NCBI GenBank assembly: GCA_947172415.1
Contig: OX359190.1
Span: forward strand, 5,952,001 to 6,016,000
Length of the DNA: 64,000 bases
Source: Chondrosia reniformis
Lineage: Eukaryota; Porifera; Demospongiae; Chondrillida; Chondrillidae
Direction of reading: 5' to 3'
Positions within the stretch are counted from its first letter, which is position 1. Every line of letters begins with the position of its first letter. The notes beneath the pieces are model-generated. The model saw only the letters and a program-made list of their open reading frames with translations. It was not told where the DNA came from and did no database searches. A program made the translations under genes and the position numbers. Positions 2,164-64,000 of this stretch are shown here, one piece after another.

Positions 2164-3620
2164 GTGTGAGTACATAACACTAGCATATACAACTACTACA
2201 TAAACAACAAACTAGTATATACATACAACTAGACCATACCTAGTACTTACAATTAGTATATACATACAACTAGTACAAACAATATTAACAACTAGTATAT
2301 AGATACAACTATTACGTACAACTGGTACATAACTAGTACATAGAAATAGTACATACAACTTGTACATACCAAATAGTACACACACCTAGCACATACAATT
2401 AGTACATACAACTAGTACATTCAACTAGTCCATACAACTAGGACAAACAACTAGGACATATATCTAGTACATACATCTAGTACATTTAACTAGTAAATAC
2501 ACATATACCTAGTTATTATGAATAGTACATACAACTAGTACATACAGCTGGCGCATACAACTAGTACATATAACTAGTAAACAAACATATAACCAGTAAA
2601 TACATATATAAGTGGCACTTAAAAATAGTACATACGCATAGTACATACAATTAGTACATACAACAAGTACATACAACTATAAACTAGTACATACAACTGG
2701 TTCATATAACGAGTACATAATACTAGAACGTAAATCTTGTATATACAACTAGTGCATAGCTATTATTTATAACTTGTATAGACATACAACTAGTACCTAC
2801 AACTACTAAATATAACTAAGACTAGTACATAAAACTAGTGAATACAACTAGTACATACAATTATTACATACAACTAGTACATGCAACTAGCACATACACC
2901 TACTACATATAACTAGTAAATACACATACCTTGTAATTATAAATAGTACATACAACTAGTACATAAAAGTAGTACATAAAATTAGTATCTTCTACATACA
3001 ACTAGTACCTTCCTAGCACCTGGTATAACTAGTAAAAGAACCTACCATTTGTACATACAACTAGTACATACAACTAGAACATACAACCAGTACATAGCTA
3101 GTACATACAACTAGTATATACATACAACTAGTACATACAACTAGTATCTACAACTAGTAAATATACCTAGTACTAGTCCATACAACTAGTACATACAACT
3201 AGTACTTGCAATTAGTACATATAACTAGTCCACACATCTACCACATATAACTAATACATAAAAATATAACTAGTATGTATAAATAGTACATAAACATAGA
3301 ACATACAAGTAGTTCATACAACTATTAGTACATAGAACGAGTACATAAAACTAGGACTTATAACTAGTAAACACCTATTACATATAATTAGTACATAAAT
3401 ATATAACTAGTACATACAAATAGTGCATCCATATAGTATATATAACTAGTCCATAAAACTAGTACATGCAACTAGAAACTAATATATACAACTAGAAACC
3501 AGTACATACAACTAATATATACATAAAGCTAGTACGTTAAACTAGTTCATACAACTATTATATACTAACAACTAGTTCATACAGCTAGTATTTACAATTA
3601 GGTCGTACAAGTAGTTCACA

Positions 3621-44350: not shown

Positions 44351-44452
44351 CACTCACTTTTGACTCTACATTTATATGCAATATATAAGATGTATAATAT
44401 GCATATAAGATATATACAATATATATTACATATAAGATATATAATACATATA

Positions 44453-45627
44453 CATTGGAACCTCTGTTAACCGACATTCGCAATAGCGAAAACCTCCACT
44501 ACAACGGCCCGGAAGTAAAGCACCGACTGAACTTCGTATTAAAGTAGTATGTAAGAACCCTCCGTATAGCGGAAACCTCTCAGTTCCGTAATAACAAACT
44601 TATCTCCTTTGCCAAAGTGTAAATTCTATCTCTATTTAACGGAAAAAGGAATCACAATTCGAACGTAATATATCGGGAATTAACGTGTGTGTCAAAAGAA
44701 TGCGAATATGCGAGCAGTATACACAATCTTTTGACACGTATTGATTTGACACCTCAGTAACTTCGTATACACATCCCGTACAACTAAGCATTCTTTTAAC
44801 CACAATGTTTACTTATACCCGAATTTTCGACCAGATTCAAATCCAGTGATATTATTAGGTAAGCAGCTGCCATCTACGGACAGGAGGAGCATTTTGAATA
44901 AGATAGATATGAACAGAACCGACATAGTAAGGAAAGCCTCCATAAGGACAAAGAACTGTCGTCCTTAAATGTCCTTTAAAAAGCTTTGTAAATGAGCACG
45001 TACAGAACACAGGATCAAATTACAGGTTTCATATGGTGTGAAATCTATTTGAAAATTCTTGAACAGCCAGGTTTCAAAGGGTGCTCAAAAATGTGCTAAC
45101 AGATTAATTTCACTGGTTTCAAATTTTAACAGCCCCCTTTCCAAGTTTATACATACTTTCATACCTTTTGAAACCTGGCAGTTCATAGATTTTCAAATAG
45201 GTTTCATGCCATCTGAAACCTGATATTTGATCCTTTGGAATGAAGTTATCTTGAAAAGTATCTTCTTAGAGATGCTCCTCCTGTCCATAGATGGCAGCTG
45301 CTTAACTATCACTGGATTCGAAAGAATCCCTGCAGGACATCAAATACTTTTTGGAGAGCTATTCCCACTTTATTGAAGCAGCTACTACCAGCAACCTTAT
45401 TGATAGAGTTGCAATGTTGCATTCAGTTTGTGCCAGACAGACTACTATAGATGATCATACTTAAGGACTATAGTTACATGTCTGCATGTAAATGTATATA
45501 TATGAAGTCTGAGTAATTATTTCTGTGTAAAAACAAGAAATGCGCAAAACCTCCCTTTAAAGAAAACCTCCTAAATAAAGGAAAAAGAAATTGTCCCAAT
45601 GATGTTTGTTATTCGGAGGTTCCACTG
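44453..45627 (+). mobile_element. Non-autonomous pogo-type element, 1.18 kb
   Basis: TIRs CATTGGAACCTCTGTTAACC and CAGTGGAACCTCCGAATAAC with TA on both sides fit the pogo/Tigger group. It contains a long imperfect palindrome (44,840-45,315) in which GCAGCTGCCATCTACGGACA and a second block (45,013-45,079 with 45,169-45,235) pair with their complements. Near the right end, 45,330-45,464 encodes a short frame (DIKYFLESYSHFIEAA) ending in a stop, which may be a transposase C-terminal remnant. No catalytic core seen. Confidence 0.75.
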
Positions 45628-46346
45628 TAATAGATGTATGCTTTTTTCTCTTTTTTCTTTTTTCAGGACCCCACCTGGTATTGTACCATGGCATCCTTGT
45701 ACGAAGATGTTATCCGTAACATCATCAGTCACATGGCTTCCACAATGTATCTTGTAAATGAAGTCCTATTTATATACCACTCACTTCTGACTCTACATAT
45801 ATATACAATATATAAGATATATTATATGCATATAAGATATATTCAATATATATTACATATAAGATATATAAAACATATATAAGTTGTTAGCTTTTTTCTT
45901 TTTTCAGGACCCAACCTGGTATTGAACTGGGGCATCCTCGTACCTTGTATCCAGACGATGTCATCCGTAACACCATCGGTCACGTGCGTCACCCAATATA
46001 TGTTGTAAATGATGTCCTATTTATATACCACTCACTTTTGACTCTACATATATATGCAATATATAAGATATATAATATGCATATAAGATATATACAATAT
46101 ATATTACATATAAGATATATAATACATATACATTATGCCTGCTTTTTTCTTTTTTCAGGACCCAACCTGGTATTGAATCAGGACATCCTCGTACCTTGTA
46201 TCCAGACGATGTTATCCGTAACACAATCGGTCATGTGGGCTCCACAATATATGTTGTAAATGATGTCCTATTTATATACCACTCACTTTTGACTCTACAT
46301 ATATATGCAATATATAAGATATATAATATGCATATAAGATATATAC

Positions 46347-46850
46347 AAGGATTTTGAACCGTCAATTAGTGATATTTACCCCAAAGAACTTATTCGTAAA
46401 AAGACAAATACCAGCCCTAAAAAATCCCCCTTTTTAGACTTAGATATAACCATTACTAACAATCAATTTATCACTAAAGTATATGATAAGCGAGAGGACT
46501 TTAACTTTGATATAGTAAACTTCCCCCATTTAGATAGTAATATTCCTAATACCCCAGCCTATGGTGTCTTTATTTCACAACTAATTAGGTATTCTAGAAT
46601 ATGTAGTGACTTCTCCAGTTTTCAGGCTAAAAGTTTGCAGTTATGCAGTAGGCTTATTAAGCAGGGTTACAAATACTTTAAGCTAAAATCAACCTTTAAA
46701 ACCTTCCTATCCCGGCAGCCTCTAGTTAGAATCAAGTATAAGCAAAAAGTAGCTAGTATGCTTAAGGACTGTCTTGTGTTACCCCATATTGTGTTACCCC
46801 ACCTCCAAAGAAATGTTACTACTAGAAGACCTAAGGGTAGACTTACGTAA
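46347..46850 (+). pseudogene. RT C-terminal fragment in upstream pseudo-LTR
   Basis: An open frame without a start, identical in register to the last ~168 codons of the full gene: PFLDLDITI through the stop. It differs by a P for Q and an R for L near its beginning. It is truncated by the unit's 5' end and is part of the pseudo-LTR, not a separate gene. Confidence 0.9.
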
Positions 46851-47026
46851 TATGTCCTACTTGTGTCTATAGTTATGCTGAGTCTGTTTTACCTGTACAA
46901 GCAAGATTACTAATAGATTTATAATTAATTCATAAAAGTTAATTGGACCTACATTCCTTTCATAAAATTAAATTTCATCATGTGTCTTAGTTAACACCTT
47001 ATTTAACTTTTGGCGCCAAAATAGTG

Positions 47027-47034
47027 TATATAAG
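47027..47034 (+). promoter_or_regulatory. TATA-like box in upstream pseudo-LTR
   Basis: TATATAAG, 16 bp after the palindrome TGGCGCCA and about 430 bp before the ORF start, so placed to drive the complete unit. An identical box is at 50,560. Promoter activity is inferred. Confidence 0.5.
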
Positions 47035-47100
47035 GCCCCTAGATTTAGCATAGTGAGCCAAGGATTCACAGAAGATCAAGATAAAGAAAAAGACAAAGAC

Positions 47101-47156
47101 TCCCAGGATCACTGATGAAGGGTGGAATTCCCAGAAACGGCTGTCTGACCCAGTGG
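47101..47156 (+). ncRNA. Type I hammerhead ribozyme candidate (upstream pseudo-LTR)
   Basis: CUGAUGA at 47,112-47,118; stem II GGG/CCC with a UGGAAUU loop (one A on each side); GAA at 47,134-47,136; stem III AC/GU with a GGCU loop; cleavage C at 47,145. Stem I pairs UCA with UGA, then GG with CC past an A-C mismatch, then CCC with GUGG past one more mismatch. A very short stem III and open stem I match published PLE hammerheads. Cleavage would separate tandem units of the transcript. Confidence 0.65.
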
Positions 47157-47209
47157 AGAAGAAGATGAAAGAAGGGATGACCCAGTGGAGAAGAAGATGA
47201 AAGAAGGGA
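47146..47209 (+). repeat. 32-bp tandem duplication after the cleavage site
   Basis: TGACCCAGTGGAGAAGAAGA begins each of two identical 32-bp units (47,146-47,177, 47,178-47,209). Each copy offers a 3' strand for hammerhead stem I. Same in the downstream repeat. Confidence 0.9.
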
Positions 47210-47461
47210 AAAGAAGGAAGAAAAGACTACTGTATCTTCATCTAAAGCTCTCTTTAGGTTTAGTTCCCCTGTAGGCTCTTTTTACAGAATAGGCATATAG
47301 CATGTAGGAAAATGGTATCTTAGATTTTTCATGTATTTACTTAGCCTCATGTTAGTCCCTGGTGGCTGTTGAGCCATTGTTGCCTTTAAATAGCCCCGGC
47401 TACATGTAATAGGTTAAGTCTTTGTGGACTAGCTTGTCTAGTCCTTGACCCATTTCCAATC

Positions 47462-50383
47462 ATGACAAGTACAAAGTATAGAGATAGGATACCGGCTGGG
47501 AGGTCGCCCGGGTTAACAAGCTCCCCGTCATTAGGTAAAGGTAGGGTGCCTGGTGATGAAAAGTTAGCTAACTCTCCCCCATCTGTAGGTAGAGGGGTGC
47601 CTACTGGTGGGCAAGCTAGCCCCTCACTAGTTAAGAAGTGTAGCAATAAGCGGTGTAAAATATGTCCCTCTTTATTTACTGGCCCTACTTTTAAGAGTTC
47701 AGTTACTGGCAGGACCTATCAAGTCCGTAGCCCTTGTGGTCCCCTAGGATGCCAGAGTAGGAATGTTGTGTATCTTATTACTTGTAAACAATGTGATGTA
47801 CAGTATGTAGGAGAAACCTCTCAGATGCTTAGGAGTAGAATGAACAACCATAGGACTAGTACCAAAGGTTTTAAGCCACTGTATCTTTACAATCACTTTA
47901 ATTCTGATAACCATAGTTTTGATGATGCCTTGATTATGCCCATAGAACAGATACCTGAGACACCTAATTCTACTAGCCTCAGACTACTGAGAGAAGCGTT
48001 CTGGTACAAGGAACTCTGCTCGATTTACCCATATGGACTTAACGATAACATTAAAGGCGTTGGCAATATTTCAAAACTTAAAAAAGAAATCATCGTATGG
48101 AACCTTTTTAATCGCTTATCTCATAAAAGACGGCATCGGCGCTCCAATCTAAAATCGACAGGCAGTAGTAATAACGCTGCCTACGACCCTGAATGGCTCA
48201 AAGAACGACTACCACTTTACAAGAACGTTGGCTTTCTAGCCAAACTTAAACGCGATACTTTTGCATTACCAGCTCGACACCTTCATCGTTTGTTAAACTC
48301 GGTACAATGTCTCATCGATACCCCAGAAACACCTTTTACGCTTAGACTTATGCTAATGATTAAAGACGTTATTAAAGCACGCGCTTCAGCCAGCCTTCCC
48401 AAACACCCAACGAAAACGACAAGTCCAGAAGGGTTTCTTAAAATCGTGTTTCATAATAAAGGTGTAGAAAAAATAGGCCTCCCAGGTATCTTAAACCAAA
48501 AGTTAGTGTTAGAAACTGTCCCACCCTTTATACAAAACAAAGAGCCCCCATGTGTCGTATATAAGTATACCCAACCAATAGGACCTCAAATCTTTAACTT
48601 TTCACAAACCTCTAAGTCAGATGTCTTTAGAAAACCAGAACCATGTGAGTGTCACAAGTCCCCCTTCATTTACAAGCCCCTAGGCCATGTTTTAACAGGT
48701 GATCTACGTATTGTTAGTAACCCAAAACTTAGAAAACTTCTTAAGAAAGGACCAAAATTTAGAGAACCTAATAACTTTAATTGGGTAACTGCTTTAAAAA
48801 TGTGTAAGGAAGGTCTTAGAAAATATAAGATTACCTGGGCCCGTAGAGAAAATGTATCTACTTCTGTATTTAGTGAGTGGGAAAATGCTGTACTTAAGAA
48901 AATTAATGATAGGATCTCTAAGCTGTCTAAATCGTATACCAAATCCTCAGTAGCCAAGAAGACCCTTACTTGCCCTAAAATTAAGAAATTCTTAGCAGAC
49001 CTACATGATAAGTATGTTATAGCCCCTGCCGATAAGGCCTCTAACAATATAATTTTTATATGTAAGTCCTACTATAGACAAATTATTAATGAAGAACTAG
49101 GCAGTACCTCCACTTATGCTAAATGTACAGTAGAACCCCAACAGTTAATTAGGAAACACATAGATTTCTTAAAACTAGAGAACTTAGAACCTAAACCAGA
49201 CTGGTGTAACCTTCCCTCTTTTTACTGGATGCCTAAGCTACAGAAGAACCCTTACAGCTACAGATTCATAGCCGCCTCTCACAAATGTACTACCAAACCC
49301 CTTTCTAGATTTCTAAATTCGGCGCTCAGACTAATTCTCAAACATTTTAGAGAATACTGCCTAGGTATATATAGGAATACTGGTGTTAATGCCTTTTGGA
49401 TAGTAGAAAACTCACTAGAAGTCTTAGATAGTCTTAGGTCTATACCCACTAGAAAAGCCCAGCTAGCTAGTTTTGATTTTTCTACATTATATACAGCGAT
49501 CCCCCATAATCTACTGAAAGATAAGATTACTAACCTAATTCATAGTGCCTATACCTGTAGAAAGTCCCAATATATAGAAGTCTGTCAGGATAAAGCCTTT
49601 TGGTCTAACAATGTCTCCAATAAAGCAGTCACAGCTGTTCATTTAGTAGAGCTCTTTAATTACCTTATTGACAACATTTATGTATGTGTAGACGGTTCTG
49701 TATTTAAGCAATGTGTAGGTATCCCTATGGGTACTGACTGTGCCCCTGTAGTTGCTAACCTTTTTTTGTTTGCCTATGAGTATGAGTTTATGAAAGGACT
49801 ACTTAAGGATAACATCACCCTAGCAATTAAATTTTCCAATACTTATAGGTATATTGATGACCTTTTATGTATTAACAACAAGGATTTTGAACAGTCAATT
49901 AGTGATATTTACCCCAAAGAACTTATTCTTAAAAAGACAAATACCAGCCCTAAAAAATCCCCCTTTTTAGACTTAGATATAACCATTACTAACAATCAAT
50001 TTATCACTAAAGTATATGATAAGCGAGAGGACTTTAACTTTGATATAGTAAACTTCCCCCATTTAGATAGTAATATTCCTAATACCCCAGCCTATGGTGT
50101 CTTTATTTCACAACTAATTAGGTATTCTAGAATATGTAGTGACTTCTCCAGTTTTCAGGCTAAAAGTTTGCAGTTATGCAGTAGGCTTATTAAGCAGGGT
50201 TACAAATACTTTAAGCTAAAATCAACCTTTAAAACCTTCCTATCCCGGCAGCCTCTAGTTAGAATCAAGTATAAGCAAAAAGTAGCTAGTATGCTTAAGG
50301 ACTGTCTTGTGTTACCCCATATTGTGTTACCCCACCTCCAAAGAAATGTTACTACTAGAAGACCTAAGGGTAGACTTACGTAA
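47462..50383 (+). CDS. Permuted PLE protein: N-terminal GIY-YIG nuclease plus reverse transcriptase
   Basis: An intact 973-residue frame. Residues ~60-97 hold cysteines in a C-x4-C-x2-C...C-x4-C array like a zinc-binding knuckle. Next comes the GIY-YIG nuclease: VVYLITC (102-108), YVGET (115-119), R124/R126, H130, then a W-Y-K-E-L segment near 190. After a long linker with CECHKSP, the RT reads YVIAPADKASNNIIFI (~519), FYWMPKLQKNPYSYR (~588), motif A SFDFSTLYTAIP (~670), motif B GIPMGTDCAPVVANLF (~753), motif C YIDD (~797) and PFLDLDITI. This domain order, nuclease before RT, defines the permuted Naiad-like PLEs, the reverse of the canonical element at 5,968. The ATG at 47,462 is the first in the open frame, about 130 bp after the upstream repeat. 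Likely recently mobile. Confidence 0.93.
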   Translation: MTSTKYRDRIPAGRSPGLTSSPSLGKGRVPGDEKLANSPPSVGRGVPTGGQASPSLVKKCSNKRCKICPSLFTGPTFKSSVTGRTYQVRSPCGPLGCQSRNVVYLITCKQCDVQYVGETSQMLRSRMNNHRTSTKGFKPLYLYNHFNSDNHSFDDALIMPIEQIPETPNSTSLRLLREAFWYKELCSIYPYGLNDNIKGVGNISKLKKEIIVWNLFNRLSHKRRHRRSNLKSTGSSNNAAYDPEWLKERLPLYKNVGFLAKLKRDTFALPARHLHRLLNSVQCLIDTPETPFTLRLMLMIKDVIKARASASLPKHPTKTTSPEGFLKIVFHNKGVEKIGLPGILNQKLVLETVPPFIQNKEPPCVVYKYTQPIGPQIFNFSQTSKSDVFRKPEPCECHKSPFIYKPLGHVLTGDLRIVSNPKLRKLLKKGPKFREPNNFNWVTALKMCKEGLRKYKITWARRENVSTSVFSEWENAVLKKINDRISKLSKSYTKSSVAKKTLTCPKIKKFLADLHDKYVIAPADKASNNIIFICKSYYRQIINEELGSTSTYAKCTVEPQQLIRKHIDFLKLENLEPKPDWCNLPSFYWMPKLQKNPYSYRFIAASHKCTTKPLSRFLNSALRLILKHFREYCLGIYRNTGVNAFWIVENSLEVLDSLRSIPTRKAQLASFDFSTLYTAIPHNLLKDKITNLIHSAYTCRKSQYIEVCQDKAFWSNNVSNKAVTAVHLVELFNYLIDNIYVCVDGSVFKQCVGIPMGTDCAPVVANLFLFAYEYEFMKGLLKDNITLAIKFSNTYRYIDDLLCINNKDFEQSISDIYPKELILKKTNTSPKKSPFLDLDITITNNQFITKVYDKREDFNFDIVNFPHLDSNIPNTPAYGVFISQLIRYSRICSDFSSFQAKSLQLCSRLIKQGYKYFKLKSTFKTFLSRQPLVRIKYKQKVASMLKDCLVLPHIVLPHLQRNVTTRRPKGRLT

Positions 50384-50559
50384 TATGTCCTACTTGTGTC
50401 TATAGTTATGCTGAGTCTGTTTTACCTGTACAAGCAAGATTACTAATAGATTTATAATTAATTCATAAAAGTTAATTGGACCTACATTCCTTTCATAAAA
50501 TTAAATTTCATCATGTGTCTTAGTTAACACCTTATTTAACTTTTGGCGCCAAAATAGTG

Positions 50560-50567
50560 TATATAAG
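50560..50567 (+). promoter_or_regulatory. TATA-like box in downstream pseudo-LTR
   Basis: TATATAAG, copy of 47,027-47,034. Here it points out of the element into satellite 2. Confidence 0.45.
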
Positions 50568-50633
50568 GCCCCTAGATTTAGCATAGTGAGCCAAGGATTC
50601 ACAGAAGATCAAGATAAAGAAAAAGACAAAGAC

Positions 50634-50689
50634 TCCCAGGATCACTGATGAAGGGTGGAATTCCCAGAAACGGCTGTCTGACCCAGTGG
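50634..50689 (+). ncRNA. Type I hammerhead ribozyme candidate (downstream pseudo-LTR)
   Basis: Identical to 47,101-47,156. CUGAUGA at 50,645-50,651 and cleavage C at 50,678. Followed by the same 32-bp tandem duplication. Confidence 0.65.
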
Positions 50690-51874
50690 AGAAGAAGATG
50701 AAAGAAGGGATGACCCAGTGGAGAAGAAGATGAAAGAAGGGAAAAGAAGGAAGAAAAGACTACTGTATCTTCATCTAAAGCTCTCTTTAGGTTTAGTTCC
50801 CCTGTAGGCTCTTTTTACAGAATAGGCATATAGCATGTCGGAAAATGGTATCTTAGATTTTTCATGCAATATATATTACATATGAGATATATAATACATA
50901 TAATAAATGTATGCTTTTTTCTTTTTTTCTTTTTTCAGGACCCCACCTGGTATTGAACCATGGTATCCTCGAACTACGATGTTTTCCGTAACACCATCGG
51001 TCAAGTGGGTTCCACAATGTATCTTGTAAATGAAGTCCTATTTATATACCACTCACTTTTGACTCTACATATATATGCAATATATAAGATATATAATAAG
51101 CATATAAGATATATACAATATATATTACATATAAGATATATAATACATATATAAGTTGTTTTTCTTTTTTCTTTTTTCACGACCCAACCTGGTATTGAAC
51201 CAGGACATCCTCGTCCGGCGATGTTATCCATAACACCATAGGTCACGTGGGTTCCACAATGTATCTTGTAAATGAAGTCCTATTTATATACCACTCACTT
51301 TTGACTCTACAGTTATATGCAATATATAAGATATATAATATGCATATAAGATATATACAATATATATTACATATAAGATATATAATTCATATAATAGATG
51401 TATGCTTTTTTTTTCTTTTTTCAGGACCCCACCTGGTATTGAACCATGGTATCCTCGTACGATGATGTTATCCGTAACACCATCGGTCACGTGGGTTCCA
51501 CAATGTATCTTGTAAATGAAGTCCAATTTATATACCACTCACTTTTGACTCTACATATATATGCAATATATAAGATATATAATAAGCATATAAGATATAT
51601 ACAATATATATTACATATAAGATATATAATACATATGTAAGTTGTTGCCTTTTTTCTTTTTTCAGGACCCAACCTGGTTTTGAACTAGGGCATCCTCGTA
51701 CCTTGTATCCAGACGATGTCATTCGTAACACCATCGGTCACGTGGGTCACCCAATATATGTTGTAAATGAAGTCCTATTTATATACCACACACTTTTGAC
51801 TCTACATATATATGCAATATATATATAATATGCTTATAAGATATATACAATATATATTACATATAAGATATATA

Positions 51875-52216
51875 CAGTAGAACGTCGATTATCCAAACGT
51901 CAATTATACGAATCGTTGATTATCCGAACGTCATCGCAAGATGCTGACTCCGCAAAATATGGCCGCCAAGCAACGGAAGAGAACAATTAAGTGTAGACCA
52001 GAAGCTTGAGATCGGCAAGCGATTGAAGAAAGAGGTTGCTATTACTTCATTTTGGAAGGAATTGAATATTGGGAAGTCGACAAGTTGTGATATAAAGCAA
52101 AATGAAGAAAAATTCGTCACTTTTGTTGAGAAACTGCTTGCTGTTGGATTATACGTACTTTTTGATTTTACGTATAGACCAATCCCCAATTAGTTCGGAT
52201 AATGAACGTTCTACTG
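51875..52216 (+). mobile_element. Pogo/Tigger MITE with helix-turn-helix remnant
   Basis: 342 bp with TIRs CAGTAGAACGTCGATTATCC and CAGTAGAACGTTCATTATCC, TA-flanked. Part of the interior (about 51,998-52,150) encodes QKLEIGKRLKKEVAITSF, WKELNIGKSTSCDIK and EEKFVTFVEKLL, matching the N-terminal CENP-B/Psq-type DNA-binding domain of pogo transposases. It is thus an internal-deletion derivative of an autonomous pogo element. The upstream KQRKRTIK lies in another frame. Confidence 0.85.
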
Positions 52217-53933
52217 TAATACATAAATATTATGCAACCCTTTTTTTCTATTTTCAGGACCTTTCCTGGTATTGAACCAGGACATCCTCGTACCTTGTAT
52301 CCAGACGATGTTATCCGTAATACCATCGGTCAATTGGGTTCCTCAATATACGTTGCAAAGGATGTACTATTTATATACCACTCACTTTTGACTCTACATA
52401 TATATGCAATATATATATATATATAACATGCATATAAGATATATACAATATAATACATATATAAGTTGTTTTCTTTTTTTTTTTTTTCAAGACCCAACCT
52501 GGTATTGAACCAGGGCATCCTCGTACGACGATGTTATCCGTAACACCATCGGTCACGTGGGTTCCACAATGTATCTTGTAAATGAAGTCCTATTTATATA
52601 CCACTCACTTTTGACTCTACATATATATGCAATATATAAGATATATAATATGCATATAAGATATATACAATATACATTTCATATAATATATATAATACAT
52701 ATATAAGTTGTTGGCTTTTTTCTTTTTTCAGGACCCAACCTGGTATTGAACTGGGGCATCCTCGTACCTTGTATCCAGACGATGTCATACGTAACACAAT
52801 CGGTAACATGGGTTCCACAATGTATCTTGTAAATGAAGTCCTATTTATATACCACTCACTTTTGACTCTACATATATATGCAATATATATGATATATAAT
52901 ACGCATATAAGATATATACAATATATATTACATATAAGATATATAATACATATACATTATGCCTGCTTTTTTCTTTTTTCAGGACCCAACCTGGTATTGA
53001 ATCAGGACATCCTCGTACCTTGTATCCAGACGATGTTATCCGTAACACCATCGGTCACGTGGGTTCCACAATATATGTTGTAAATGATGTCCTATTTATA
53101 TACCACTTACTTTTGACTCTACATATATATGAAATACATGTATATATAATATACATATAAGATATATACAATATCTATTACATATAAGAAATATAATACA
53201 TATATATTATGTATGCTTTTTTCTTTTTCAGGACCCAACCTGGTATTGAACCAGGACATCCTCGTACCTTGTATCCAGACGATGTTATCCGTAACACCAT
53301 CGGTTACGTGGGTTCCGCAATATATGTTGTAAATGAATTCCTATTTATATACCACTCACTTTTGACTCCACATATATATGCAATATATAATATGCATATA
53401 AGATATAAACAATATATATTACATATATTATGTATGCTTTTTTTCTTTTTTCAGGAACCAACCTGGTATTGAACCAAGACATCCTCGTACCTTGTATCCA
53501 GACGAAGTTATCCGTAACACAATTGGTCACGTGGGTTCCACAATATATGTTGAAAATGAAGTCCTATTTATATACCACTCACTTTTGACTCTACATATAA
53601 AATGCAATATATAAGATATATAATATGCATATATATATGTTCTATATATCTTATATCTTATGTTTATATACTATATATCTTATATATATATTATATATCT
53701 CATATATTGCATTTATATGAAAGGTGAAAAGTGTGTGTTATATAAATAGGACTTCATATACATCATATATTGGGTGACCCACTTTACCCATGGTTTTACG
53801 GTTGATATCATCTGGATACATCGTACGAGGATGCCCTGGTTCAATACCAGGCTAGGACACCTGAAAAAAGAAAAAATGTACATCTTATATATATATGTTC
53901 TATATATCTTATATCTTATATATATATAGTATA

Positions 53934-54284
53934 CCGTAGTTCGGAAAATTGTCGTGTTCGGAAATTTTCGTGGAAACATTTTTTGTGTTAAAATATTTTC
54001 GTGGTCTGGGGGCTACCTAGAAAATTTATACACCTTACGTAATAACGTTGAGAAATAGAGGATTACAAAAGGGATCACTGTCTTGGCGGCTTTCACAAAG
54101 TGTGCCCTTTGGGTCCAGTAAACTGTCCTTGCGCTGCAGGTATCGCAGTAGAGCCATTTAGCCCCGCTCAGCTGTGTTACATTTACATATATACGTATAT
54201 TGTACAACGTGTTATTATTCGTTGTTAAATATATTTCGTGTTAAAATATTTCATGTTTCAGCAACGAAAATTTCTCGAACTACG
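53934..54284 (+). mobile_element. MITE with imperfect TIRs, 351 bp
   Basis: Left end CCGTAGTTCGGAAAATTGTC and the right end's complement CGTAGTTCGAGAAATTTTCG match imperfectly. It interrupts satellite 2 shortly after the strand switch and has no coding potential. Superfamily not recognised; target duplication unclear in TA-rich flanks. Confidence 0.6.
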
Positions 54285-54388
54285 TTTATATCTTAATTGA
54301 ATATATAATATCTAATATAATGCATATATATGTAAGGTCTAAAGTGTGTGATATGTAAATAGAACTTCATTTACAACATAAATTGGGA

Positions 54389-54472
54389 GACCCACATGAC
54401 CGATGATCTTATGGATGACATCATCTGGACACTGGGTGCGCGGATGCCCTGGTTTGATACCAGGCTGGGTCA
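54389..54472 (+). ncRNA. tRNA-like segment of satellite 2 (example 1)
   Basis: 84 nt. GACCCA pairs with TGGGTC at the ends (a C-C mismatch closes the 7-bp acceptor). The T-arm is CCTGG, loop TTTGATA, CCAGG, directly followed by 7 acceptor nucleotides and an A, then CC. Probably tRNA-derived and not a working tRNA. Confidence 0.5.
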
Positions 54473-56556
54473 CCTGAAAAAAGAAAAAATATACATCTTA
54501 TATATGTTCTATATATCTTCTATCTTATATATATGTATTATATATCTTATATGTATTTATATATCTTATATATTACATATATATGTAAGGTCAAAGTGTG
54601 TGATATATAAATAGGGCTTCATTTACATCATATATTGGGTGACCCACGTTACCCATGGTGTCACGGTTGACATCATCTAGAGACAGCGTACGTGGATGCC
54701 CTGGTTCAATACCAGGCTGGGACACCTGAAAAAAGAAAAAATGTACATCTTATATATGTTCTATATAACTTATATCTTATATATATATATAGTATATATC
54801 TTATTTGAATATATAATATCTTATATAATGCATATATAATATCTTATATAATGCATATATATGTAAGGTCAAAAGTGTGTGATATATAAATAGAACTTCA
54901 TTTACAACATATATTGGGAGACCCACGTGACCGATGATCTTACGGATGACACCATCTGGATACAGGGTGCGAGGATGCCCTGGTTCGATACCAGGCTGAA
55001 TCACCTGAAAAAAGAAAAAATATACATCTTACATATGTTTTATATCTTATATGTATATTATATATCTCATATATTGCATTTATATGAAAGGTGAAAAGTG
55101 TGTGTTATATATATAGGACTTCATTTACATCACATATTGGGTGACCCACGTTACCCATGGTGTTACGGTTGACATCATCTGGATACAGCATACGAGGATG
55201 CCTTGGTTCAATACCAGGCTGGGAAACCTGAAAAAAGAAAAAAATACATCTTATATATGTTCTATATAACTTATATCTTATATATATATATATACAATAT
55301 ATCTTATTTGAATATTATATATCTTATATAATGCATATATATGTAAGGTCAAAAGTGTGTGATATATAAATAGGACTTCATTTACAAGATATATTGGGGG
55401 ACCAACGTGACCGATTATCTTATGGACGACATCATCTGGGTACTGGGTGCGCGGATGCCTTGTTCGATACCAGGCTGGGTCACTTGAAAAAAGAAAAATA
55501 TACATATTATATATGTTCTATATATCTTATATATATATCTTATATCTAATATGTATATTATATTTCTCATATATTGTATTTATATGTATTTATATGGAAG
55601 GTGAAAAGTGTGTGTTATATAAATAGGACTTCATTTACATCATATATTGGGTGACCCACGTGACCGATGATGTTATGGTTGACATCATCTGGATACACAA
55701 TATGAGGATGCCCAGGTTCAATACCAGGCTGGGAAACCTGAAAAAAGTAAAATATACATATTATATATGTTCTATATATCTTATATATATATATATATAT
55801 TATATCTAATATGTATATTATATTTCTCATATATTGTATTTATATGTATTTATATGGAAGGTGAAAAGTGTGTGTTATATAAATAGGACTTCATTTACAT
55901 CATATATTGGGTGACCCACGTGACCGATGATGTTATGGTTGACATCATCTGGATACACAATATGAGGATGCCCAGGTTCAATACCAGGCTGGGAAAACTG
56001 AAAAAAGAAAAATATACATATTATATATGTTCTATATATCTTATATATATATATATATATATATCTAATATGTATATTATATTTCTCATATATTGTATTT
56101 ATATGGAAGGTGAAAAGTGTGTGTTATATAAATAGGACTTCATTTACATCATATATTGGGTGACCCACGTGACCGATGATGTTATGGTTGACATCATCTG
56201 GATACACAATATGAGGATGCCCAGGTTCAATACCAGGCTGGGAGACCTGAAAAAAGAAAAACATATACATCTTATATATGTTCTATATATCTTATATCTT
56301 ATATATATATAGTATGTATATTATATACCTTATATATTACATATATATGTAAGGTCAAAAGTGTGTGATATATAAATAGGACTTCATTAAATCATATATT
56401 GGGTAACCCACGTGACCGATGGTGTTACGGTTGACAACATCTGGATATAGTATACGAGGATGCCCTGGTTCAATACCAGGCTGGGATACCTGAAAAAAAT
56501 ATACATATTATATATGTTCTATATAACTTATATCTTATATATATATACTATATAAG

Positions 56557-56986
56557 TTACAATATACTAAGGTAATCTAATATAATATAATATAATATAA
56601 TATAAATAATATAATTAATTCATATGGCTCCAAGAAAGGACTTAGAAACAAAATGGGCATATAATCATAAAGATTAGGGTATAAAACTCATTTTTAATTA
56701 AGGGATTTTTTATTTAGGTCTCCGTTTCTTAGAAAACGGAGGACAAAGTTTGCATATAAAAGGCCATAGGACTATAGAAAACCTATGGGAAATTTATATG
56801 CAAACCATGTGTTATATTAATAAAAATTTTCAATTTGTCAGATAACTGGGAAATCAACATACATCATGGTACATGTGTATAAGAAACATCTGGCGAAGTT
56901 TTGCTTAATTAAATGAGCAAAATAATCAAGATATAATGAAGAATTCAAAGTTACGATTGCGCAAGCTGGTGATGTATTGTGATGTT
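56557..56986 (-). mobile_element. Family A fragment
   Basis: About 430 bp similar to 34,436-34,865, starting at TTACAATATACTAAGGTAAT and ending within GATGTATTGTGATG. It includes an expanded TAATA run and the hairpins CTCCGTTT/AAAACGGAG and CCATAGG/CCTATGG. More diverged than the duplication pair, so an independent family member. Confidence 0.85.
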
Positions 56987-57496
56987 TTTCTATTATATCT
57001 TATATGTACATTATATGTCTCATATATTACATATATATATCTAAGGTCAAAAGTGTGTGATATATAAATAGGACTTCATTTTCATCCTATATTGGGAGAC
57101 CAACGTGACCGATAGTGTTACGGTTGACAACATCTGGATACAGCATACGAGGATGCCCTGGTTCAAAACCAGCCTGGGACACCTTAAAAAAACATAAAAT
57201 TCTTAAATATGTTCTATATATCTTAAATCTTATATGAATATAGTATATTTCTTTTATGTATATTATATACCTTATATATTACATATATATGTAAGATCAA
57301 AAGTGTGTGATATATAAATAGGACTTCATTTACAGCACATATTGGGCGACACACGTGACTGATGGTGTTACGGTTGACATCATCTGGATACAGTATACGA
57401 GGATGCCTTGGTTCAATACCAGGCTGGGACACCCGAAAAAAGAAAAGATATACATCTTATATATTTTCTATATATCTTATATCTTATATATATATA

Positions 57497-58257
57497 TGTG
57501 GCAGTCGAGGTTAGAAACTCGACTTTATGTCAGGGGGTCGCATTTTAAGTTTTTTGCATTTTTGGAAAGAAGAACTATTGGACTATCTTCGCTGAAAGTT
57601 TCAAAGCAATGCCTTCATTTATGGCAGAGCTAGAGCCTCAGAAGTATCCGCGATTGGACTCCAGCCGTCTCCTTCCATATAATTTGCATATTAACAAGCT
57701 ATAAAATGGCCGCCGCCACATTCACGGACTATCGGATTTCATTCCAAAACAGCCCGATCCTGCATCGTAATTGGTAAGTTCCTTAGCAATTTACACCACA
57801 CAGTATGATAAGCAGTATTTTATTCTAGAGCAAAAGATTGACAAGTAGGAAAACAATAGCTATTATTGTTTTTAGTTAGCTAGCTAGCTAGCATTCACTA
57901 GCTACCTTATCCTTAAATAGTTTTACTGATGAACGCAAAGCGACGTGTACCAAAATGCATGCAGAAAATCATACTCCACTAGGTAGCTAATACAAGCAGC
58001 ATAAACAACATGTAGCTACATCTGACAAACCATATAGCTAATGTCACATCTTTGAGCGAGCATATCGTGGTCCAGGAACGTGATATTGTCGTCGGTCAAA
58101 GACCAAAAGATAGCCCTTTGACTGGACAACACGCTGCAAGTAGTCAAACACGACTTCTGAGAACGCAAACAGTCGAATACTAACGAAAACTTTGCACGTG
58201 CTGTTCTCAAAACTAGTATTGCGACATAACGTCGAGTTTCTAACCTCGACTGCCACA
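57497..58257 (+). mobile_element. MITE with ~35-bp TIRs, 761 bp
   Basis: Ends TGTGGCAGTCGAGGTTAGAA and its complement; about 35 bp with one mismatch. Each TIR contains the palindrome GTCGAG/CTCGAC. Flanked by TATA on both sides, so the duplication is TA or TATA. No transposase. Contains a promoter-like stretch (separate entry). Confidence 0.82.
57682..57779 (+). promoter_or_regulatory. Promoter-like and splice-donor-like stretch inside the MITE
   Basis: Octamer ATTTGCAT (57,682-57,689), TATAAAA (57,700-57,706), a YY1-like AAAATGGC, then an open stretch ending at a perfect splice donor GTAAGT (57,774-57,779). Could be a captured host promoter and first exon, or chance. The ATG at 57,705 overlaps the TATA box and is unlikely to be the start. 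Confidence 0.3.
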
Positions 58258-59014
58258 TATAGTATATATCTTATATGTATATTATATATGTTATATATTA
58301 CATATATATGTAAGGTCAAAAGTGTGTGCTATTTAAATAGAACTTCTCATTTACAACATATATTGTGAGACCCACGTGACTGATGATCTTACGGATGACA
58401 TCATCTGGATACAGGGTGCGAGGATACCCTGGTTCGATACCAGGCTGGGTATCTTATATCTTATATATATAGTATATATCTTATTTGAATATTATATATC
58501 TTATATATTGCATTTATATGGAAGGGAAAAAGTGTGTGTTATATAAATAGGACTTCATTTACATAATATATTTGGTGACCCACGTTACCCATGGTGTTAC
58601 GGTTGACATCATCTGGATACAGCCTACCAGGATCCCCTGGTTCAATACCAGGCCTGGACACCTGAAAAAAGAAAAAAATGTACATCTTAAATATGTTCTG
58701 TATAACTTATATCTTATATATATATATAGTATATATCTTATTTGAATATTTTATATCTTATATAGTGCATATATATGTAAGGTCAAAAGTGTGTGATATA
58801 TAAATAGGACTTCATTTACATCATATATTGGGTGACCCACTTGACCGATGGTGTTACGGTTCACATCATCTGGATACAGCGTACGTGGATGCCTGGTTCA
58901 ATACCAGGCTAGGACACCTGAAAAAGAAAAAGATAAACATCTTATATATGTTCTGTATATCTAATATCTTATATATATATAGTATATATATTACATGTAA
59001 ATTATATATCTTAT

Positions 59015-59665
59015 ATATTGCATATATATGTAAGGTCTAAAGTGTGTGATATATAAATAGAACTTCATTTACAACATATATTTGGAGGCCCACATGACTG
59101 ATGATCTGATGGATGACATCATCTGGATACAGCATACGAGGATGCCCTGGTTCAATACCTGGCTGGGTCACCTGAAAAGAAAAAATATACATATTATGTA
59201 TGTTCTATATATCTTATATCTTATATATATATATAGTATATATCTTATTTGAATATTATATATCGTATATATTGCATATATAGGAGGGTCAAAAGTCTGT
59301 GTTATATAAATAGGACTTCATTTACAACATGTATTGGGAGACTCACGTGACCAATGATCTTACGGATGTCTTCATCTGGATACAGGGTAGGAGGATGCCC
59401 TTGTTCGATACCAGGCTGGGTCACTTGAAGAAAGAAAACGTATACATCTTATATATGTTCTATATATCTTATATCTTATACATATATAGGATATATCTTA
59501 TATATTACATATAAATGTAAGGTCAAAGTGTGTGATATATAAATAGGACTATCATTTACATCATATATTGGGTGACCCACGTGACTGATGGTGTTACGGT
59601 GGACATCATCTGGATACAAAGTACGAGGATGCCCTGGTTCAATACCAGGCTGGGATACCTGAAAA
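59015..59665 (+). repeat. Satellite 2 segment duplicated at the window's end
   Basis: About 650 bp nearly identical to 63,361-64,000, covering two units of one type and one of the other, with one small deletion in the second copy. Confidence 0.85.
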
Positions 59666-61774
59666 AAGAAAAAATATACATCTTTTATATGTTCTATATA
59701 TCTTATATCTTATATATAGTATATATATTACATGTAAATTATATAACTGTATCCAGATGAAGACATCCGTAAGGTCAAAAGTGTGTGATATATAAATAGG
59801 ACTATCATTTACATCATATATTGAGTGACCCACGTGACCGATGGTGTTACGGTTGACATCATCTGGAGACAGTATACGAGGATGTTCTGGTTCCATACCA
59901 GGCTTTGAAACCTGAAAAAGGAAAACGTATACATCTTATATATGCTCTATATATCTTATATCTTATATATATATAGTATATATATTACATGTAAATTATA
60001 TATCTTATATATTCCATATATATATAAGGTCAAAAGTGTGTGATATATAAATAGGACTATCATTTAAATCATATATTGGGTGACCCACGTGACCGATGGT
60101 GTAACGTTTCACATCATCTGTATACAGCGTACTAGGATGCCTTGGTTCAGTACCAGGCTGGGACACCTGAAAAAAGAAAAATATACATATTATATATGTT
60201 CTAGATATCTTATATATATATATTATATCTAATATGTATATTATATATCTCATATATTGTATTTATATGGAAGGTGAAAAGTGTGTGTTATATAAATAGG
60301 ACTTCATTTACATCATATATTAGGTGACCCACGTTTACCATCGTGTTACGTTTGACATCATCTGGATACAGCCTACGAACATGCCCTGGTTCAATACCAG
60401 GCTGTAACACATGAAAAAAGAAAAAAAGTACATCTTATATATGTTCTATATAACTCATATCTTACATAAATATATATAGAATATATCTTATTTGAATATT
60501 ATATATTTCATATAATGCATATATATGTAAGGTCAAAAGTGTGTGATATGTAAATAGGACTTCATTTACAACTTATATTGGGAGACCCAAGTGACCCATG
60601 ATCTTACGGATGACATCATCTGGATACAGGGTGTGAGGATGCCTTGGTTTGATACCGGGCTGGGTCACCTGAAAAAAGAAAAAATAGACATCTTATATAT
60701 GTTCTATATATCTTATATCTTATGTATATATACTATATATCTTATATGTATATTAAATATCTCATATATTACATGTATATCTTAGGTCAAAAGTGTGTGA
60801 TATATAAATAGGACTTCATTTACATCATATATTGGGTGACCCACGTGACCGATGATGTTATGGTTGACATCATCTGGATACACAATATGAGGATGCCCAG
60901 GTTCAATACCAGGCTGGGAGACCTGAAAAAAGAAAAACATATACATCTTATATATGTTCTATATATCTTATATCTTATATATATATAGTATGTATATTAT
61001 ATACCTTATATATTACATATATATGTAAGGTCAAAAATGTGTGATATATAAATAGGACTTCATTAAATCATATATTACGGTTGACAACATCTGGATACAG
61101 TATACGAGGATGCCCTGGTTCAATACCAGGCTGGGACACCTGAAAAAAGAAAAAATGTACATCTTATATCTGTTCTGTATAACTTATATCTTATATATAT
61201 ATATAGTACATATCTTATTTGTATATCGTATATATTGCATATATATGTAAGGCCAAAAGTGTGTGATATATAAATAGAACTTCATTAACAACATATATTG
61301 GGAGACCCACGTGACAGATGATCTGATGGATGACATCATCTGGAGACAGCATACTAGGATGCCCTGGGTCAATACCAGGCTGCGTCACCTGAAAAGAAAA
61401 ATTATACATCATATGTATCTTCTATATATCTTATATCTTACATACATATATATATATATCTTATTTGAATATTATATATCTTATATATTGCATATATATG
61501 GAAGGTGAATAGTGTATGTTATATAAACAGGACTTTATTTACATCATATATTGGGTGACCCACGTTACCGATGGTGTTATGGTTGAAATCTTCTGGATAC
61601 AGCCTGCAAGGATGTCCTGGTTCAATACCAGGCTCTGACACCTGAAAATAGATAAAAATATACATCATATATATGTTCTATATATCTTATATCTTATATA
61701 TATATAGTATATATCTTATTTGAATATTATATATCGTATATATTGCATATATATGTAAGGTCAAAAGTGTGTGT

Positions 61775-61784
61775 TATATAAATA
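61775..61784 (+). promoter_or_regulatory. TATA-like box of satellite 2 (example)
   Basis: TATATAAATA begins 37 bp before the tRNA-like segment at 61,812. Nearly every unit has it at a similar distance. Function inferred only. Confidence 0.35.
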
Positions 61785-61811
61785 GGACTTCATTTACAAC
61801 ATGTATTGATA

Positions 61812-61895
61812 GACCCACGTGACCATTGATCTTACGGATGACATCATCTGGATACAGGGTACGAAGATGCCCTGGTTCGATACCAGGCTGGGTCA
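61812..61895 (+). ncRNA. tRNA-like segment of satellite 2 (example 2)
   Basis: Acceptor GACCCA/TGGGTC, T-arm CCTGG-TTCGATA-CCAGG (61,871-61,887), 7 nt, then A at 61,895. B-box-like GGTTCGATACC matches 10 of 11 consensus positions. The A-box-like TGACCGATGG of sister units is near the right place. 52 nt separate the 5' acceptor strand and T-arm against 41 in a standard tRNA; position 33 of the best anticodon loop is not U. An E-box CACGTG (61,816-61,821) overlaps the start. Confidence 0.5.
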
Positions 61896-62227
61896 CTTGA
61901 AGAAAGAAAACGTATACATCTTTATATGCTCTATATGTCTTATATCTTATATATATATAGGATATATTTTATATATTACATATAAATGTAAGGTCAAAAG
62001 TGTGTGATATATAAATAGGACTATCATTTACATCATATATTGGGTGACCCACGTGACCGATGGTGTTACGGTGGACATCATCTGGATACAAAGTACGAGG
62101 ATACCCTGGTTCAATACCAGGCTGGGATACCTGAAAAAAGAAAATATATACATCTTTTATATGTTCTATATATCTTATATCTTATTTATATATAGTATAT
62201 ATATTACATGTAAATTATATATCTTAT

Positions 62228-63358
62228 TAAATAAAAACATTCAAAAATGAAGTTAAAAGTAGGGATGGCACTATAACAGTGATTGGCACATCTAGAAAAA
62301 GTAACGAAACAAGAAAGTGATCATATGGTAAGGCTAACATTGCAGAAGTGGCATACTGAAACTTAACTATACACATCACTTCTATGTTTGGGCGCATCAT
62401 GGATATACTAGAAGTAGGGATCGATGCGCCCAAACATAGAAGTGATGTGTATAGTTAAGTTTCACTATGCCACTTCTGCAATGTTAGCCTTACCATATGA
62501 TCACTTTCTTGTTTCGTTACTTTTTCTAGATGTGCCAATCACTGTTATAGTGCCATCCCTACTTTTAACTTCATTTTTGAATGTTTTTATTTAACTTGTA
62601 TTGCTCCTTTTTTCTTGTTAATATTTGTTTTGAAAGTTTTCTTGGCGAAAACTCGAAATAAAGTAGCAGAATAGACGATATAATAGAGAGCTCTAAATTA
62701 AAAAATGGCGTCCGAAAAGATCCCAAATTTGATAAGATGTTTTCTACCGTTCTTTAACATTCAGTTTAGGATATTAAAGGGTCCATAATCGTTAAGAATA
62801 CGACTGTATATAGGCCCTGCAAAGCGACTAAGAAATTCAATCGCGGGTAACGGCAGTACCACAAATATTACTCATTCGGGTTACTTATTTTATATACAGA
62901 GAATTTGAAACCTAATTAAAAAATGGCATTCAAAGAGGCCCTAAATTGGGCACTTTCAAAAGTAACACGCTTCGGTTGGAGCGCGTTGAAATCTAGGGTA
63001 GCCTATTCCCTTGTTCGGAAACATTCATGACGATTTAGTATTTGTATGTACCTGCGTAAGTTCGCATGTTAGCGCTAGCTCATTTGAAAAAAGAAGAAGA
63101 AGAAGAAGAAGAAGAAGAAGAAAAAATGAGGAATTGCAGAATTTGGCCTATTTCGGTTTAACCACTTTGCAAAGGTTGTAGAGCATCGTAACATGTTTTG
63201 GCGTTTAGAAAAGCATGCAAAAACGACTGCAAACACACGAATGCAACCGAAAATCTGAACGTTGTTGATTTATGAGGTGTTAATTGATAATACATTGAAT
63301 AGGGCGGACATGTTTTTTTTCGGCCATCCCTACTTATAGAGTACAACCGTACTCTATG
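62228..63358 (+). mobile_element. Family D foldback element, copy 3 (most complete)
   Basis: Begins with a 366-bp near-perfect hairpin (arms 62,228-62,398 and 62,423-62,593, loop 24 bp). Then about 765 bp with AAAATGGCG, a (GAA)n run at 63,091-63,120 and the terminus GGCCATCCCTACTTATAGAG plus a GAGTAC/GTACTC hairpin. GTAGGGATGGC appears inverted at hairpin and terminus. No ORF of known type; short frames are hairpin translations. Confidence 0.78.
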
Positions 63359-63360
63359 AT

Positions 63361-64000
63361 ATATTGCATATATATGTAAGGTCTAAAGTGTGTGATATAT
63401 AAACAGAACTTCATTTACAACATATATTTGGAGGCCCACGTGACTGATGATCTGATGGATGACATCATCTGGATACAGCATACGAGGATGCCCTGGTTCA
63501 ATACCTGGCTGGGTCACCTGAAAAGAAAAAATATACATATTATGTATGTTCTATATATCTTATATCTTATATATATATATAGTATATATCTTATTTGAAT
63601 ATTATATATGTTATATATTGCATATATAGGTAGGGTCAAAAGTGTGTGTTATATAAATAGGACTTCATTTACAACATGTATTGGGAGACCCACGTGACCA
63701 ATGATCTTATGGATGTCTTCATCTGGATACAGGGTAGGAGGATGCCCTTGTTCGATACCAGGCTGGGTCACTTGAAGAAAGAAAACGTATACATCTTATA
63801 TATGTTCTATATATCTTATATCTTATATATATATAGGATAAATGTAAGGTCAAAGTGCGTGATATATAAATAGGACTATCATTTACATCATATATTGGGT
63901 GACCCACATGACTGATGGTGTTATGGTGGACATCATTTGGATACAAAGTACGAGGATGCCCTGGTTCAATACCAGGCTGGGATACCTGAAAAAAGAAAAT
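63361..64000 (+). repeat. Second copy of the duplicated satellite 2 segment
   Basis: Near-identical to 59,015-59,665. Placed directly after family D copy 3 and truncated by the window end. Confidence 0.85.

Follow-up and report, generated by a model that had tools for sequence, protein, structure and literature searches.

Can a satellite DNA descend from a transfer RNA (tRNA) gene, and would it still keep the tRNA fold? This question is raised by a stretch of 64,000 nucleotides from the sponge Chondrosia reniformis (contig OX359190.1, here C2, positions 5,952,001-6,016,000), which we call the window. Its last 20 kb are occupied by a tandem repeat. An initial annotation, made from the letters alone, held that every unit of this repeat carries a tRNA-like fold. 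We found that the resemblance to tRNA is real but decayed. Shuffled sequences and a covariance model trained on tRNAs of this sponge support the tRNA-derived origin that had been proposed, but not a fold that is maintained.

The annotated picture of about 45 units over 20 kb, in two orientations, proved accurate. A profile search of the window (nhmmer) gave 44 units and one fragment of 35 nucleotides (nt) between 45,629 and 63,999, in the order of 13 units on the minus strand followed by 31 on the plus strand. The left array (44,351-53,640), with its tRNA sense on the minus strand, holds the 13 units (45,629-53,595), which in the alignment form family A, with the consensus TTGGGTC-CTG. The right array (53,718-64,000), with its tRNA sense on the plus strand, holds the 31 units (53,718-63,999) of family B, with the consensus CTGGG[TA]C-ACCTG. 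Between them is an AT-rich switch point (53,641-53,717), with the flanking sets of units directed apart. Both arrays are interrupted by inserts, and the stretch between 44,351 and about 44,460 looks, by eye, like unit spacer severed by one of them. The period is about 250 bp, with a spacing between units of 210-303 bp where no insert intervenes. The right array runs on beyond the window. A genome search with the core of an example unit of family B (58,776-58,958, plus strand) found matches as far as C2:6,017,302.

Evidence for a tRNA ancestry comes from a covariance model of C. reniformis tRNAs (27 nuclear ones of class I), run unfiltered on the whole window. At E ≤ 10 it returned 64 matches, and the top 17 are all units read on the sense strand, the best one with 22.9 bits (E = 1.9e-4). 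Counted by eye, 33 of the 44 units have a sense match at this threshold, and none has an antisense one. Of the remaining 31 matches, one falls in an insert and 30 fall at positions 1-44,000, where the best reaches 11.5 bits. At 21 further loci the matches agree with the orientation of the array in 171 cases out of 177 and oppose it in 6 (again by eye, with overlapping loci included).

Alignment gives a similar result. The comparison set consisted of 40 of the 63 tRNA matches listed for the genome (37 nuclear and 3 mitochondrial, among them the 27 of the covariance model), and the aligned unit forms were composites typed from the consensus. In global alignment the best partner is tRNA-Arg(ACG), matched end to end. 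The score is 16.0 for the 74-nt inner form, 17.5 for a form with nine bases omitted and 15.5 for the 83-nt form of the initial annotation, against a null of 3.9-4.0 (standard deviation 2.0-2.2). For each of the three forms, none of 500 shuffles was equal. Local alignment is weaker and points in the same direction, with 1-2 of 300 shuffles as good. The length had suggested a tRNA of class II (Leu/Ser), whose variable arm is long, and this candidate was dropped since the best alignments are to class I tRNAs, tRNA-Arg(ACG) among them. A relaxed run of ARAGORN (-ps50) reported tRNA-like structures in all three typed forms; this came without a shuffle control and was given no weight.

The combination of motifs is also more than chance would give. 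When the 185-column consensus was shuffled 100,000 times with its dinucleotides kept, a B-box together with a 5-bp T-stem appeared 27 times, and both together with a 6-bp acceptor match appeared twice. The 185-column consensus itself has the B-box and the T-stem, and lacks the acceptor match. All three are present in the typed core of family B, and two in that of family A. The initial annotation had named two warning signs for its own proposal, a tRNA score no better than that of shuffled units and a lack of compensatory changes across units. The first is absent, with the shuffle comparison made by alignment and the covariance model compared with the antisense strand and the rest of the window.

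Where does the tRNA begin within the unit? The best covariance matches and the alignment place tRNA position 1 at GACCGA, nine bases downstream of GACCCA. In this inner register the tRNA-like segment of the example unit spans 58,843-58,915 on the plus strand, beginning with GACCGA and ending with CTAGGAC. It has a D-stem GTGT/ACAT and the A-box position TGGTGTTACGG (58,849-58,859, plus strand), which is set by the tRNA-Arg alignment and fits the A-box consensus weakly. The A-box annotated before, TGACCGATGG, starts 7 nt ahead of it. GACCCA itself (58,834-58,839, plus strand) would be a further copy of the 5' acceptor strand, placed outside the first. TGGGTC can pair with both GACCCA and GACCGA, and better with GACCCA. 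Judging by their letters, the two may both stem from a single acceptor strand, and in GACCCACGT/GACCGATGG the gene start seems to be duplicated imperfectly over 9 nt, which would explain the register chosen in the initial annotation. That 83-nt register exceeds 500 of 500 shuffles, yet it scores slightly below the other two forms and the best covariance matches favour the inner start, so it was set aside.

The T-arm, CCTGG-TTCAATA-CCAGG with the B-box-like GGTTCAATACC (58,892-58,908, plus strand), is present as annotated. Among 43 units of the window and one unit of contig C13, 91.3% of the T-stem cells are paired, and the annotated GACCCA/TGGGTC pairing is present in 76.5% of cells. The exact tRNA geometry of the initial annotation does not hold throughout. 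It fails 5' of the T-arm, where GACCCA lies 9 nt farther out than in a tRNA. The seven acceptor nucleotides followed by an unpaired A hold for family B (CTGGGTC-A) but not for family A (TTGGGTC-C).

The second warning sign, the lack of compensatory changes, is what we observed. In neither register is covariation above that of shuffles (leader 0.064 against 0.069, inner 0.081 against 0.084; 44 sequences, 15 pairs), and the share of paired cells in the leader register, 84.4%, is below the shuffled mean of 85.1%. In the window and related loci, the T-stem pairs are intact in 278-340 of 358-359 units, with mostly one-sided breaks. The fourth pair is broken in 80 of 358, and the fold is thus not found in every unit. 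Selection on an RNA structure was rejected because there is no excess of covariation and the stem breaks are mostly one-sided. Folding energies gave z values of -1.3 to -1.8 for single forms of 64-74 nt, and the -3.6 of a form with a longer outer stem arises because the leader lengthens the pairing.

If no fold is kept, the promoter might be. The arrays would then be a working field of RNA polymerase III (Pol III) elements, in which selection keeps the TATA box, A-box and B-box, and which recruits TFIIIB/TFIIIC or makes RNA. This was examined in 360 distinct units from the window and loci L017-L074, which were fetched by similarity, overlap in part and are not a random sample. Loose patterns are widespread, with TATA[AT]A[AT] in 346 of the 360, the B-box core in 278 and all three motifs in 163. 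A strict A-box pattern occurs in 3. The TATA box ranks first in raw conservation, and on a tree of the 360 units it has the fewest changes, 8.0 steps per site against 12.4. However, its conservation is not significant for any window of sites (p = 0.29; 0.105 for a 24-nt block), and the A-box (12.4 steps per site) and the B-box (13.3) change at the average rate, so that special conservation of the Pol III boxes was rejected. Runs of four or more T on the sense strand are fewer than in shuffles (11 observed against 19.2 ± 3.6 in 9,677 array bases), which counts in favour of such a field, but a nearby terminator is rare. A TTTT lies within 150 nt past the T-arm in 11 of 44 units, whereas each of 48 tRNA genes of the sponge has one within 30 nt downstream. 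At the position of that T-run the example unit has an A-rich run (58,921-58,931, plus strand). Together with the lack of covariation, these counts make a selected Pol III field improbable. Somewhat more of a long shot is its boldest form, in which the satellite would be a mid-chromosomal field of about 1,900 modules of TATA, A-box and B-box, mostly terminator-free, that load TFIIIB/TFIIIC and make long unterminated Pol III transcripts. If true, an early-branching animal would use Pol III as a way to form centromeric or pericentromeric chromatin. Transcription by Pol III, which the initial annotation had suggested, could take place at some units.

The position of the TATA box was compared with that in tRNA genes. 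In the example unit the box reads TATATAAATAG (58,797-58,807, plus strand), and from the first letter of TATAAATA it is 35 nt to GACCCA and 44 nt to the start of the inner tRNA register. Of the 360 units examined, 198 have both TATAAATA and xACCCAC in exact form, and in 184 of these the distance is 35 nt; for GACCGA it is 44 nt in 179 of 194. Upstream of 48 tRNA genes of the sponge itself, at loci L009-L016 and L115-L154, a TATA starts between -38 and -30 in 29, most commonly at -35, and TATAAA is found at -36 to -33 in 14, against an upstream background of 0.00035 per position. Such a positioned TATA near -35 of tRNA genes is striking for an animal. The satellite TATA lies at the tRNA-gene position when counted from the outer copy. 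We take this as supporting and not decisive, because there are two copies to choose from and the sequence is AT-rich. A comparison of the TATA block with viral contigs gave no match, which is uninformative for the sponge.

How is the repeat distributed in the genome? The genome searched has 117,379,552 bases in 15 contigs, and the paper on the assembly odChoReni1.1 describes 14 chromosomes and a mitochondrion of 17.45 kb (PMC12181767). A 16-mer from the T-arm occurs exactly 993 times (384 forward and 609 reverse), and its reversed control does not occur. With the 44 units of the window, these are the long head-to-tail arrays of one many-copy unit that make a satellite DNA. Scaled from 23 matches of the 16-mer per 44 window units, we estimate about 1,900 units in total, or about 0.4% of the genome. 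Among the matches listed (about 100-150 for each search) the units group by eye into 29 clusters on at least 11 of the 14 chromosomes, with none on chromosomes 1, 9 and 12. All these clusters are mid-chromosomal, at 0.28-0.59 of the length, an interval set after inspection of the data. A centromeric satellite would be expected to form one such domain on every chromosome, and the repeat is a candidate for one. It also offers a sequence by which the central part of sponge chromosomes can be marked. No units were found in 16 loci around the retroelement described below and around tRNA genes (L001-L016). A fixed layout around a centromere, with minus units to the left and plus units to the right, was considered and dropped, as parts of C2, C4 and C8 agree with it and C3, C6 and C13 disagree. 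Homogenisation within arrays is clear for family B, with a mean identity over sampled pairs of 0.875 within a locus against 0.817 between chromosomes, and weak for family A (0.900 against 0.890).

Taken together, we find it fairly probable, with ample room for error, that the unit is what remains of a tRNA gene (of the 40 tRNAs compared, tRNA-Arg(ACG) comes nearest), which was copied with its upstream TATA and AT-rich flank and then spread in tandem and homogenised in the middle of most chromosomes. The gene and its TATA box would have been copied as DNA, not retroposed, into AT-rich sequence. Unequal exchange would then have amplified it, with the terminator and the anticodon stem lost and drift since. 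Today it would be an ordinary satellite, whose leftover Pol III promoter might give at most weak read-through RNA.

Several results weigh against this account. ARAGORN found no tRNA, and with default settings it called none in the three typed forms; the unit is thus not recognised as a functional tRNA gene. Rfam reported no tRNA at its gathering score in the window, nor at E ≤ 10 in the 20-kb array and in two single units. No anticodon stem is recognisable in the unit. The register differs among the covariance matches, the fourth-best starting elsewhere. The TATA spacing matches the outer copy and not the inner one, and the upstream flank of the sponge's own tRNA-Arg(ACG) gene (L143) is unlike the unit. 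Finally, the tRNA-like head with its B-box is followed by an A-rich run, and the pair ACATCATATATTG / ACATCTTATATATG resembles, by eye, a target-site duplication.

The silence of ARAGORN and Rfam and the lack of covariation would also suit a resemblance that arose by chance in an AT-rich satellite. We hold this to be very improbable, since the alignment exceeds 500 of 500 shuffles and the covariance matches agree with the strand of the array.

The A-rich run and the candidate duplication would fit a tRNA-derived short interspersed nuclear element (SINE) that inserted into an AT-rich repeat and was then amplified, along with its flank, as a satellite. Satellites derived from SINEs are known in squamates (PMC10702118). 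On the other hand, no dispersed copy of the unit, as a SINE parent should have left, is present among the matches listed, and a TATA at tRNA-gene spacing falls outside the usual retroposed transcript. This is the main rival and we do not favour it; we regard it as rather unlikely, though the strongest of those weighed here.

If the unit is a tRNA-gene relic, how unusual would it be? The initial annotation called the tandem amplification of a tRNA-like unit unusual. Unusual it is, but not unique, as amphibians provide precedents. PMC10702118, on which the following comparisons are based, describes tandem families with tRNA-like segments in Cynops (PolIII/TAN), Xenopus (OAX) and Rana (Rana/polIII), and doubts the tRNA origin of Hy/polIII of Hydromantes. 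PolIII/TAN of the newt is, like the sponge repeat, tandem, with a tRNA-like segment and without a known SINE relative. According to its title, the original report (Nagahashi et al. 1991, cited there) derives it by retroposition of tRNA-Glu. It differs by its unit of about 360 nt, its tRNA-Glu and its transcription in vitro, whereas the sponge unit is of about 250 bp, resembles tRNA-Arg and is known from sequence alone. In water frogs, the tandem unit of Rana/polIII (Bucci et al. 1999) is about 250 nt long and in part similar to a tRNA (64% over 64 nt), and the family makes up as much as 10% of some frog genomes, against the estimated 0.4% or so in the sponge. OAX, or satellite I of Xenopus, shares the tandem arrangement and the tRNA-derived segment; it is described as transcribed and its unit is much longer than that of the sponge. 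The squamate satellites likewise come from a Pol III-type element, but their SINE parents are known and they prefer subtelomeric regions, while the sponge repeat has no parent found and is mid-chromosomal among the matches listed (PMC10702118).

Since the sponge repeat is also a tandem unit with a tRNA-derived segment, our best reading is that it belongs with the amphibian families, likened to them by description. With its TATA spaced as in tRNA genes of the sponge itself, the repeat suggests that a satellite of this sort can begin as a DNA copy of a whole tRNA gene, and not only as a retroposed SINE. In the open-licence literature we found no paper joining satellite DNA, sponge, Porifera and centromere, and a topic search there returned none on Pol III satellites or a tRNA-derived satellite. 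Among 20 papers listed out of 1,388, none names Chondrosia reniformis.

Other sequences share the window with the repeat. Positions 1-44,325 hold a minisatellite with an AT-rich unit of 13 bp, TACATACAACTAG or the complement of it, whose long runs switch orientation several times. A retroelement, which we take to be Penelope-like, is inserted in the array at 46,348-50,870 and has an open frame of 973 amino acids (47,462-50,383). The only Pfam match of this frame is a sub-threshold GIY-YIG at residues 102-135 (E = 0.00023, 21.9 bits, cut-off 22.6). A stretch of about 1 kb is repeated at both ends of the element (46,348 and 49,881), and for a 501-base piece of it 40 matches were scored, spread over many chromosomes and with 97-100% identity. 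Four more inserts (44,461-45,625, 51,876-52,220, 57,497-58,260 and 62,226-62,610) have, by eye, inverted-repeat ends like those of small DNA transposons. In the last of them, a hairpin at 62,365-62,456 matches a microRNA of Rfam below threshold (42.1 bits, cut-off 100).

Outside the window, at locus L072, a coding-looking stretch on the minus strand (about 3,130-3,300) adjoins the end of the C13 array at the unit sequence CACCTG; its 36-residue translation has no Pfam match. The antisense strand of many units (for example at 52,475-52,490 of the window, plus strand) shows a pyrimidine run ending in CAG, similar to a 3' splice site, with GTAAAT farther on.

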